A stretch of DNA of 64,000 nucleotides, taken from NCBI RefSeq assembly GCF_900215605.1, contig NZ_OBEL01000001.1, positions 1,860,001 through 1,924,000 on the forward strand, written 5' to 3'. Positions 28,513-31,989 of the stretch are shown here, one piece after another (position 1 is the first letter of the stretch; the number at the start of each line of letters is the position of its first letter). The translations under genes and the position numbers were made by a program. The notes under the pieces were generated by a model. That model worked only from the letters and a program-made list of their open reading frames with translations, did no database searches and was not told where the DNA came from. This DNA comes from Cohaesibacter gelatinilyticus. Its GTDB lineage: Bacteria; Pseudomonadota; Alphaproteobacteria; Rhizobiales; Cohaesibacteraceae.

Positions 28513-30114
28513 TCAGCTACTATCCCCGTTAGATGAGGATGCAAGATCTGAAACCGCCTTGCCTGCATCCAGCAAGCCATGCCCAAAGTCCGGGTCACGT
28601 CCGGCGTCACCAAGATCACGGGCAGCAATCGCCAGATATTCCTTGATCTTGTCAGGGGACAATCCCTGCACACGTTCCAGCATCAATGCCACGGAACCGG
28701 AAATATAAGCAGCAGCCATGGAAGTACCGCTTTCCAACGCATAGCCTTCTTCGCCGCTTGCAACCAGAACATCCACACCAGGCGCTGCAATCTCGACATG
28801 TCCGCCACGATTGGCAAAGTCATAAAGGCCATCATCTGCGTCTGTCGCGGTCACAGCGATCACATTGTCATAAGCAGCAGGATAAGCAGCCGGTGCCCCT
28901 ACCCCTTCATTGCCGGCCGCAGCAATAGCAATCACACCACGCTCCGACGCTTTCTCAAGAACCGCTTTGATCAGCGGGTCCTGGTCACCAGCAAATGACA
29001 GATTGAGAATATTCGCCCCATTGGCAATAGCCCAGTCAATACCACGAGCAATATCATAACTATCGGCAGTGACATATCCTTCTTCACTCGTCGCAAAGAC
29101 TTGTGCGGATAGCAACTTTACTTCACTGGCAACGCCTCGCATACCCTGACGAGCAGCAATGATTGAGGCAACCGCAGTACCGTGATGCGTATCAAGCTTG
29201 GCACTTTTTTTGGCAAAAGCCGTGAAGCGGCCAGAGACCTTGTCTACCAAAGCAGGATGCGAACTCGAAATACCGCTATCGATCACCGCCAGTGTCACCC
29301 CCTTACCTCGCTGTGCAATGGTCTGCGCCGTAAGGTTCAGCTTATCAAAGGCATATTGCAGTCCATCTGGCAATTCTTCCTCAGCCACCCCCTTGCTCGC
29401 GGCTGAGGTTTGAGCAGGATAGTAGAGATAAGAAGGTTGGGCTTTTTGCAAACGTGGATCAGATCCTAATTTTGCTAACTCAGCAGGCTTCATCCCCTTT
29501 GGGTAAGCCAGCTTCAAATAAATCTGATCCAGCAAACCAAGGCGTATCTGTGCCAGCCGCCTCAGGTCATACTGTTGGAGAAATTCCGAAACTTCTTTCT
29601 GACTGATGCCAGGTTTCAGAGCCACTACAAAGTGCTTTTTGCTCATCAACGGTTTGAAACCGATACGATAAGTACCAGGCTTTGGACGTCCCAACCGTAT
29701 CATTTCTGGCAGGGCTACACGGACAATCCTGGCCTTCCGAGGCCGCTTGGTCTTGCGAACACGTCTAGGCTTTTTCGGCTTTTTATATTTGGGACCATTT
29801 CTACCTGCAGATGGTGGCGGGGAGCCATAAACGGGAGGATCTTTGCGCGCACGTGCTCTTTGACGGGCTTTTTCAGCAGCGATGCCAAGAATGATCCCGA
29901 CACCAAGGCCAATCGCTGCTCCAGCGGCATTGCTACCCCGGTTGCCTTTGGGTCGATGAATATCGTTGGACGGAGGCGGGGGCGTGGCACCGGGATATTG
30001 TGCCCAGGTTTCGCCAAGGCTACCCATAACCAACGAACCTGCCAAAGCGAGGCAAAGGGAAGATCGCAAAGCGACCTTTGCAAGGAGCTTTCCATAGTTT
30101 CGATCTTGAACCAT
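28513..30114 (-). CDS. S8 family (subtilisin-like) serine protease with I9-like prodomain
   Basis: A 533-residue protein with a signal peptide (about 1-39, WAQ), a Gly/Ala-rich hydrophobic patch (about 63-80), a strongly basic linker rich in Lys/Arg/Pro (about 101-134), an I9-like prodomain (about 161-233, HFVVALKPGISQKE) and a subtilisin catalytic domain: Asp279 in AVIDSGI, His311 in THHGTAVAS, oxyanion Asn402 in AAAGNEG and Ser465 in SGTSMAAA. It is exported and likely self-processes. ATG 30114 is chosen for GGAG at 6 bases; GTG 30132 is open. The gene is downstream of an ECF sigma and its anti-sigma, with 80 bp between, so it probably belongs to their operon. Confidence 0.85.
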   Translation of the reverse strand: MVQDRNYGKLLAKVALRSSLCLALAGSLVMGSLGETWAQYPGATPPPPSNDIHRPKGNRGSNAAGAAIGLGVGIILGIAAEKARQRARARKDPPVYGSPPPSAGRNGPKYKKPKKPRRVRKTKRPRKARIVRVALPEMIRLGRPKPGTYRIGFKPLMSKKHFVVALKPGISQKEVSEFLQQYDLRRLAQIRLGLLDQIYLKLAYPKGMKPAELAKLGSDPRLQKAQPSYLYYPAQTSAASKGVAEEELPDGLQYAFDKLNLTAQTIAQRGKGVTLAVIDSGISSSHPALVDKVSGRFTAFAKKSAKLDTHHGTAVASIIAARQGMRGVASEVKLLSAQVFATSEEGYVTADSYDIARGIDWAIANGANILNLSFAGDQDPLIKAVLEKASERGVIAIAAAGNEGVGAPAAYPAAYDNVIAVTATDADDGLYDFANRGGHVEIAAPGVDVLVASGEEGYALESGTSMAAAYISGSVALMLERVQGLSPDKIKEYLAIAARDLGDAGRDPDFGHGLLDAGKAVSDLASSSNGDSS

Positions 30115-30194
30115 TTCGCTCTCCATCCTCACATCTTACACTTGCACCATTATTATTCGAAAGCACATCCAGCAGGTTCTGTTCATATGCAGGT

Positions 30195-30935
30195 CTATTT
30201 GGTAACAGACACGAACTTCACCAGAGTTTTTTGTTGTGCCAAATCCTTTGACAACATCTTGGCCCCACCTTCTGGCAATTTATCTTCAGCGACAAAAATC
30301 TCATAGATACCGCCAGCCTTTGGACCTGCAACAATGGTGGCTGAGCTGATTTTCAGCAGTGCGCTGATATCAGAAACTTTCGCATCACTTTTAAAAGCAA
30401 TGAGCAGCTTGGCCCCAACCTGCGCAGATGCAGCCATCATAGCATTTTTTTTGCCCGATGCCGTTTTGAATGCTCCGCTAGGCTCGATGGTCGGAACAGA
30501 TGCCACCTGACCACCTTCAACCGGTCCTGAAGTATCCTGTCGCAGCATTCCACCAATAACCAGTGCTTGTACAACAATAACAACTGCCGCAGCCATCCCA
30601 GCTATTTGCAGAGCGGGACGAGAGAAACCATCAAAGAGGCCAGCAACTTTGGCAAGCAAGCCATTACCAGCTTGACTGATCTGACCTACTGGATCCTTTG
30701 CGCTTTCCTCAACATCAATGCGAGCCATCAGACGATCCAATCCGCCGGGGAGCGGACCACCCAAGGCATCATGCACTTGCTGGGAGGCTATATTTTCCTC
30801 TTCAATCAGCTGAAGCTGAGCACGCATATCGGGATAATCGTCCAGATAGCGATCGACCTGAGACTTTTCTTCGTCACTCAGCAAATCCTTCGCATACCAA
30901 GGAAGCATTTGCTCAATATCCTGATCATATTTCAT
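30195..30935 (-). CDS. Anti-sigma factor with prodomain-like periplasmic region
   Basis: A 246-residue membrane protein: an N-terminal anti-sigma domain (about 1-75; LPWYAKDLLSDEEKSQVDRYL is the LPWYA-type helix of zinc-free anti-sigma factors), one membrane helix (about 108-130) and a C-terminal periplasmic domain (about 174-244). The last part, LLIAFKSDAKVSDISALLK and following, resembles the I9-type prodomain of the adjacent S8 protease in length and strand/helix order. ATG 30935 has GAGGACGAG before it, starting 37 bp after the sigma stop; the frame is open to 30992. Confidence 0.83.
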   Translation of the reverse strand: MKYDQDIEQMLPWYAKDLLSDEEKSQVDRYLDDYPDMRAQLQLIEEENIASQQVHDALGGPLPGGLDRLMARIDVEESAKDPVGQISQAGNGLLAKVAGLFDGFSRPALQIAGMAAAVVIVVQALVIGGMLRQDTSGPVEGGQVASVPTIEPSGAFKTASGKKNAMMAASAQVGAKLLIAFKSDAKVSDISALLKISSATIVAGPKAGGIYEIFVAEDKLPEGGAKMLSKDLAQQKTLVKFVSVTK

Positions 30936-30972: not shown

Positions 30973-31542
30973 TCATGGCCATCCCCGGTCAATACCGGCT
31001 TTGCTCATTAGTTCCGACAGCTTTTTGCGAGCATGAAAAACGCGTGTCTTTACCGTATTTTCTGGCACTTCCAGGATCGCCGCAATCTCCTTGATTGGCT
31101 TCTCCTGATAATAGACCAGGTCGATCACTTCCCTGTGTTGCTGTCCCAACCGATTGATACAATCGCGCAAGGCAGCAGCTTTGTCCTGTTTTAGGGTTGC
31201 AACTTCAGGCGTATCGCTCTCATCTTCCAAACCGGAGGCATAATCTTCATCCAGTTCGGCATCTGATCGTTTCCGCAAGATGCTGATCGCCTTGTTTCGC
31301 CCGATGGATATAATCCAGGAGGAAACCTTCGATCGCCCTTCAAACCGTCCAGCTGCACGCCAGACTTCCAGGAAAGTCTCATTGACCAACTCCTCTGCCA
31401 CGGCATCACTTTTCACGAAGCGCAACAGATAACGATAAAGTCGAAGGTGATGCCTTTGATATAAGAGCGCAATGGCATTGCGATCATTGTCGGCAACTTT
31501 TCTTAGTAGCTCAAGATCCCGAGCACTCTCAGATCCAGACAT
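30973..31542 (-). CDS. ECF-type RNA polymerase sigma factor
   Basis: A 189-residue sigma-70 family protein with region 2 (VAEELVNETFLEVWRAAGRF, SSWIISIGRNKAISILRKR) and region 4 (LGQQHREVIDLVYYQEKPI, EVPENTVKTRVFHARKKL). It directs RNA polymerase to envelope or stress genes and is held by the membrane anti-sigma encoded just downstream. Its promoter at 31571-31597 matches the promoter of the divergent BA14K gene, so it is probably autoregulated and likely drives both. Confidence 0.9.
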   Translation of the reverse strand: MSGSESARDLELLRKVADNDRNAIALLYQRHHLRLYRYLLRFVKSDAVAEELVNETFLEVWRAAGRFEGRSKVSSWIISIGRNKAISILRKRSDAELDEDYASGLEDESDTPEVATLKQDKAAALRDCINRLGQQHREVIDLVYYQEKPIKEIAAILEVPENTVKTRVFHARKKLSELMSKAGIDRGWP

Positions 31543-31570: not shown

Positions 31571-31597
31571 GGACGCGGCATACAGTTTTGCGGTTCA
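31571..31597 (-). promoter_or_regulatory. ECF-type promoter of the sigma gene
   Basis: On the minus strand TGAACC (31597-31592), 16 bases, then CGTC (31575-31572), followed by C. It fits the usual ECF -35 GAACC and -10 CGTC boxes and lies 30 bp before the sigma start codon, so transcription would begin close to the ATG. The same pair with identical spacing occurs upstream of the divergent BA14K gene. Confidence 0.65.
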
Positions 31598-31962: not shown

Positions 31963-31989
31963 TGAACCATTTCTCCCGGCACTGCGTCT
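31963..31989 (+). promoter_or_regulatory. ECF-type promoter of the first BA14K gene
   Basis: TGAACC (31963-31968), 16 bases, then CGTCT (31985-31989). Boxes and spacing match the promoter of the sigma gene, and the first BA14K start codon lies 54 bp further. This makes the gene a candidate target of the neighbouring ECF sigma. Confidence 0.65.

Follow-up and report, generated by a model that had tools for sequence, protein, structure and literature searches.

A prodomain-like domain on a membrane anti-sigma factor encoded beside an S8 protease in Cohaesibacter gelatinilyticus

The window analysed here is a stretch of 64,000 nucleotides from Cohaesibacter gelatinilyticus (contig NZ_OBEL01000001.1, positions 1,860,001 to 1,924,000), in which genes for an extracytoplasmic function (ECF) sigma factor, a membrane anti-sigma factor and an S8 (subtilase) protease follow one another on the reverse strand (Table 1). 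Judged by sequence profiles, the C-terminal domain of the anti-sigma factor (the C-domain) and the prodomain of the neighbouring S8 protease are homologous. The two proteins are encoded by separate genes, and the prodomain-like domain is not joined in front of the S8 catalytic domain. The anti-sigma factor is predicted to be a single-pass membrane protein, with one hydrophobic helix (residues 107-134), and its gene adjoins the sigma gene. Its N-terminal part, in which NCBIfam anti-sigma matches fall under their cut-offs, presumably binds the sigma factor, and its C-domain would lie in the periplasm. Residues 131-170, which include the linker between membrane and C-domain, have a predicted local distance difference test score (pLDDT) of 45-55 in the AlphaFold model; low predicted confidence is typical of flexible stretches. 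In the S8 protease, D285, H317, N408 and S471 are invariant across 25 aligned rows, and we take D285, H317 and S471 to be the Asp-His-Ser catalytic triad.

Table 1. Features of the locus, in window coordinates.
Feature	Position	Strand	Remarks
ECF sigma factor, 189 aa	30973..31542	-	NCBIfam NF009168 PRK12515.1, 254 bits against a cut-off of 236
Membrane anti-sigma factor, 246 aa from ATG at 30935	30195..30935	-	A TTG lies further upstream in the same frame, at 30992
Anti-sigma N-terminal helical part, residues 1-60	30756..30935	-	pLDDT 84-97
Anti-sigma transmembrane helix, residues 107-134	30534..30617	-	Membrane span predicted from hydrophobic sequence
Anti-sigma linker, residues 135-170, between membrane and C-domain	30426..30533	-	Short helix within; putative cleavage region
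Prodomain-like C-domain of the anti-sigma factor, residues 171-246	30198..30425	-	Final element is strand 4, without a tail
S8 (subtilase) protease, 539 aa, from GTG at 30132	28513..30132	-	Signal-peptide-like helix 13-33
S8 prodomain, residues 158-243	29404..29661	-	Family matches PF22148; the window copy does not
S8 catalytic domain, residues 276-519	28576..29307	-	PF00082, 9.8e-46
ECF-type promoter TGAACC-N15-GCGTC, upstream of sigma	31572..31597	-	
Same TGAACC-N15-GCGTC promoter, upstream of the first BA14K gene	31963..31988	+	
BA14K-like protein, 118 aa	32044..32400	+	PF07886, 1.7e-12; probably in the regulon
Second BA14K-like protein, 157 aa	32537..33010	+	PF07886, 2.8e-11

An earlier note on this DNA had matched the two segments by eye. 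The AlphaFold models place both where it had put them, with the same order and length of elements and the same topology. The C-domain (numbered from the ATG) is built of strand 174-181, helix 187-196, strand 199-203, strand 210-216, helix 224-234 and strand 239-245 at pLDDT 92-97, a beta-alpha-beta-beta-alpha-beta fold. The S8 prodomain (numbered from the GTG) has strand 163-172, helix 178-187, strand 191-198, strand 203-209, helix 216-224 and strand 228-239 at pLDDT 87-96. When the C-domain model was searched with Foldseek, six of the top eight PDB matches were chains of EpiP, which bears an S8 prodomain, one was the prosegment of BPN', and rank 8 was the I9 inhibitor POIA1; the EpiP match is confined to the N-terminal residues 28-90 of that protein. 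By VIA-align Z score, prodomains could not be told apart from other folds of the ferredoxin-like type.

The homology that the note had suspected is borne out at the level of families. The two single sequences of the window scored 0.2% in hhalign with no alignment, so the by-eye likeness of this pair alone is not evidence. The profile of 25 C-domain rows against that of 24 prodomain rows gave 88% (P 3.4e-6; 51.5% in global mode), and profiles of 103 and 90 rows gave 85-91%, with a score of 34.4 after column trimming; 300 column shuffles had a mean of 9.9 and a maximum of 23.6, and the reversed profile scored 12.2. With balanced profiles, A6 (40 C-domain rows) against A7 (33 S8 prodomain rows), the result was 92.9% over 63 columns (P 3.6e-7, score 36.9; mean 9.6 and maximum 15.2 in 100 column shuffles). 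SPOR and the AsnC ligand domain, families of the same fold, were used as controls: against A6 they gave 27.6% over 28 columns and 1.3%, respectively, and SPOR against the broad C-domain profile A9 gave 18.1% over 27 columns. One control pointed the opposite way: against the Bradyrhizobium-rich 103-row C-domain set, SPOR reached 90.1% over 44 columns. The prodomains of five S8 proteases outside the module scored 83.5% against A9 and 49.3% against A6, with SPOR at 0.1% and AsnC at 0.2% against the same five. On the column shuffles and same-fold controls, chance or pure convergence was rejected as an explanation.

Family searches agree with the profile comparison. In Pfam scans, PF22148 (Fervidolysin_NPro-like), the model of the fervidolysin prodomain, was the commonest family for both domains, matching 11 of 40 C-domains at E<=10 (SPOR 6 of 40, other families at most one each) and 21 of 33 S8 prodomains (other families again at most one each). 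In the anti-sigma factors of two relatives it passes its curated cut-off of 21 bits (L187, 22.3; L188, 27.0). Genome searches found a PF22148 match inside an anti-sigma factor in G161 and, in G192, a match of the C-domain profile to the prodomain of a 1035-amino-acid subtilase (E 6.8e-4), where PF22148 matches too. The window's own C-domain and S8 prodomain both lack a PF22148 match in the Pfam scans, and the C-domain has no SPOR match at E<=10. No Pfam family matched the window anti-sigma factor at E values up to 1, and searching Pfam, NCBIfam and PDB sequences with it named no C-terminal domain; the C-domain profile found no credible match among PDB sequences (best E 0.1). The earlier note had pointed to inhibitor family I9 (PF05922) for both segments. 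The window S8 has no I9 match up to E 1; since I9 was found in only one of 61 genomes of the order, it was unusable for building a profile.

The C-domain differs from known prodomains at its end. Residue 246 of the anti-sigma model aligns with residue 72 of both the 77-residue BPN' prosegment (1spb_P) and the 77-residue POIA1 (1itp), and the domain thus stops at strand 4, about five residues before the prosegment end. The C-termini of 135 of 146 profile-matched proteins fall within five residues of that end point, as do 130 of 139 distinct C-termini once two false positives are removed. In subtilisin complexes the last prodomain residues occupy the active site. We propose that, having no such tail, the C-domain could dock without plugging the active site of the protease. 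PF22148 and the subtilisin prodomains (I9 PF05922; 1spb_P, 1scj_B, EpiP 3qfh) are its closest likeness in topology, length, profile similarity, the cut-off passed in two relatives and top Foldseek ranks, but they sit before a protease and have the tail, whereas the anti-sigma domain is tailless and stands at the C-terminus of a membrane protein. POIA1 and other stand-alone I9 inhibitors (1itp, 1v5i) resemble it as prodomain relatives on a separate protein, but POIA1 continues about five residues beyond the matched part, whereas the anti-sigma factor ends there and is anchored in the membrane.

Sigma, anti-sigma and S8 form a conserved module, within and beyond the class of the window. In the order survey, the anti-sigma factor was present in 25 of 150 genomes, our own included; S8 adjoins it at 23 of the 25 loci in the 24 other genomes (in L055 in two reading-frame pieces), and the remaining two are at contig ends. 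A second sample comprised the best 80 named-genome loci of a longer list from a sigma alignment, in which Bradyrhizobium is over-represented and some loci repeat order-survey genomes (L057 = L033, L059 = L035). Anti-sigma and S8 occur together at 66 of them (one S8 runs off its contig); the others are one broken-frame S8 (L110), five loci cut by contig ends and eight without an adjoining S8, which leaves 66 of 75 informative loci with both. In the class survey, the C-domain was matched in 13 of 289 genomes, and 11 of the 12 besides our own have sigma/anti-sigma/S8; the twelfth was discarded as a false positive, an aminotransferase by sequence. Across the phylum, 51 of 398 genomes had a match at E<=0.001, and at the weak end some were serine hydroxymethyltransferases by sequence. 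At E<=1.2e-6 there were 33 places in 32 genomes, our own included, with S8 adjoining in 30. Absence of S8 from most genomes with the pair had been named beforehand as what would refute the idea; the named-locus and phylum counts show instead that the neighbourhood is kept.

The module also occurs in variant forms. In L294 and L295 S8 is the upstream gene, ahead of sigma and anti-sigma, the anti-sigma gene is on the strand opposite to sigma and S8 in L190 and L291, and G521 carries two very similar modules about 1 Mb apart (L281, L282). The fragmented genome G652 (L279), in the phylum but outside the class, has an adjoining S8 and a C-domain like that of the window's order (E 5e-21), which points to either transfer or contamination. 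In Bradyrhizobium embrapense (L110:8407-8915) S8 is split over reading frames and the anti-sigma domain is intact. Caspase-like Peptidase_C14 genes lie near sigma/anti-sigma pairs of distant genomes (L280:379-1761, L285:4453-5256 and L287:1153-2679, the last also with Sel1 repeats), and G725, whose match is weaker than the E<=1.2e-6 limit, carries a Peptidase_C14 gene (1.3e-32). Near the domain-bearing anti-sigma and the caspase-like protease of L280 and L287, small proteins shorter than the anti-sigma factor are encoded (L280:3448-3858, L287:4411-5082), in which a hydrophobic stretch is followed by the same prodomain-like domain; G635 and G725 are genomes that carry such an additional small protein.

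The promoters suggest that the sigma factor controls its own operon. The strict TGAACC-N15-GCGTC pattern occurs 7 times in the 5.2-Mb genome, the sites ahead of sigma and the first BA14K gene included, against 0 for the reversed pattern; a looser pattern is near background (25 against 15). Among 137 distinct regions upstream of sigma, the window not counted, 108 contain GAACC-N16-CG[AT]C (0.38 expected from shuffles), as do 75 of the 97 left when near-copies are removed (0.18 expected); as the pattern was derived from the same regions, the expectation is somewhat too low, although the excess is still large. Of the 22 upstream regions without it, 15 come from outside the order. From its promoter, the first BA14K gene is likely a regulon target; for the second, the preceding 230 bases contain no match to the promoter. 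The earlier note had drawn BA14K into one compact circuit with the other three genes. Autoregulation of sigma and a likely BA14K target fit that picture, but BA14K-like motifs were found at only 2 of the best 80 named loci, both from Cohaesibacter, and BA14K is therefore a probable local target and not part of the module. Between its signal peptide and prodomain, at residues about 65-145 (window 29700-29940), the S8 protein contains a helix rich in glycine and, modelled with low confidence, a long stretch that is basic and rich in proline; the BA14K proteins have, behind signal-like starts, an NAA..G..G stretch that resembles this region.

Taken together, the sequence and the structure models lead us to propose a three-gene signalling module, a reading that we regard as evenly poised between right and wrong, in which a tailless decoy prodomain on the anti-sigma factor docks S8 and so allows the protease to cleave the linker of the anti-sigma factor. 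The sigma factor would drive its own operon, and the membrane anti-sigma factor would hold it in the cytoplasm while displaying the prodomain-homologous domain in the periplasm. The C-domain would dock on the prodomain-binding face of mature S8, competing with the inhibitory S8 prodomain and leaving the active site open, and would thereby place the flexible linker next to the membrane (about 135-170) where the protease can reach it. A cut in this linker would set off the breakdown of the anti-sigma factor, with a conjectural site-2 protease step after the first cut, and free the sigma factor. The freed sigma would yield more S8 and, in this genus, also switch on a BA14K envelope protein. A precedent comes from human cells, where SPRING, according to the accessible part of the report, occupies the prodomain epitope of the S8-family protease S1P, leaves the active site unbound and licenses cleavage (PMC11231238). 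The missing tail, the flexible linker and this precedent together rank a decoy that recruits S8 as site-1 protease first among the readings considered.

Several results speak against a decoy made strictly for S8. At eight named loci the C-domain is retained with no S8 adjoining it. At two of the three S8-less places of the phylum survey the protease gene at hand is a caspase-like Peptidase_C14, adjoining the anti-sigma gene in G655 (1.8e-39) and lying some 2 kb away on the opposite strand in G635 (1.9e-32). The distance-matrix co-evolution analysis, run on 43 loci left after near-copy removal from 124 with all three genes, gave no domain-specific signal: given sigma, the partial correlation between C-domain and S8 profile was 0.19, that between the anti-sigma N-terminal part and S8 was 0.22, and that between C-domain and S8 prodomain was 0.02. 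A strong S8 relative occurs elsewhere in five of the eight S8-less named genomes, but no sigma/anti-sigma pair adjoins it at the seven places seen (L314 is at a contig end; the places in G796 and G799 fall outside the sample), and these relatives are therefore not counted as the missing partner. Such relatives stand in longer or cut frames of 475-1730 amino acids (L312-L318). In G776 neither S8 nor a caspase-like gene was found within the stretch examined.

These results would also suit common ancestry without mutual binding, which we consider unlikely: a prodomain-like or SPOR-like ferredoxin-fold domain would have been recruited to sense something else in the periplasm, such as peptidoglycan or another protein, and the protease, S8 or caspase, would be one more regulon member or downstream actor. 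The caspase-like proteases near the pair in L280, L285 and L287, the S8-less loci with an intact C-domain, the partial SPOR matches and the lack of domain-specific co-evolution all speak for it. On the other hand, strong phylum matches lie almost only near a protease (S8 at 30 of 33 places, caspase-like at 2 more), and SPOR drops to 18-28% with the two broader-sampled profiles.

Homology, fold and linkage are also compatible with an inhibitor or holdfast, in which the C-domain would keep S8 bound and quiet at the membrane, and a pull on it by S8, its substrate or a released prodomain would report protease abundance; S8 would then be what the system measures or puts out, and would not act as site-1 protease. 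An example among the Foldseek matches is POIA1, a prodomain relative that stands alone and inhibits subtilisin (1v5i title). The sigma promoter, in addition, is located ahead of S8, whose level would feed back if the genes are co-transcribed. We nevertheless find this quite unlikely: the C-domain is without the tail that makes prodomains product-like inhibitors, and a long flexible linker is more to be expected of a cleavage site than of a stiff relay. That the two domains converged on a small, widespread fold and are alike in sequence by accident is highly improbable and already largely refuted by the shuffles and same-fold controls, PF22148 above its cut-off in relatives' anti-sigma factors, the reciprocal profile matches and the Foldseek ranking.

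At its most far-reaching, the tailless-decoy reading would make the locus a proteobacterial counterpart of S1P/SPRING/SREBP, a possibility that we think less likely than not: a tailless prodomain copy would displace the inhibitory prodomain, license S8 and itself be cut, giving a self-amplifying protease-sensing switch, in some lineages with a caspase-like protease. The likeness lies in a partner on the S8 prodomain epitope, a free active site and a membrane-bound transcription regulator, here putatively the anti-sigma factor, that is cut. In the accessible text on SPRING-S1P-SREBP2, however, SPRING has no conserved structure in common with the prodomain and is not a substrate, whereas here the partner is the proposed substrate (PMC11231238). 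Among bacterial systems, RseA/DegS and other proteolysis-controlled anti-sigma factors offer, in the available parts of two reports, a membrane anti-sigma factor with an extracytoplasmic domain and a candidate site-1 protease (PMC7593790, PMC8103513); the proteases named in the part seen of the first are not S8, and it describes no domain common to protease and anti-sigma (PMC7593790). ECF54, as far as the accessible text goes, has subtilase and caspase-related (CHAT) proteins in its sigma neighbourhood but is described without an anti-sigma factor (PMC8999054). Our literature search, which covered few subscription papers, found no description of this circuit. The membrane anti-sigma factor is probably under proteolytic control, and prodomain mimicry would be the new element.

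Many membrane anti-sigma factors still lack a known signal and site-1 protease. For the one described here, a candidate protease and docking mode can be read from the sequence. Should the proposal hold, a secreted protease would be coupled to transcription in a new way, by prodomain mimicry, and the families of bacterial site-1 proteases would gain S8.
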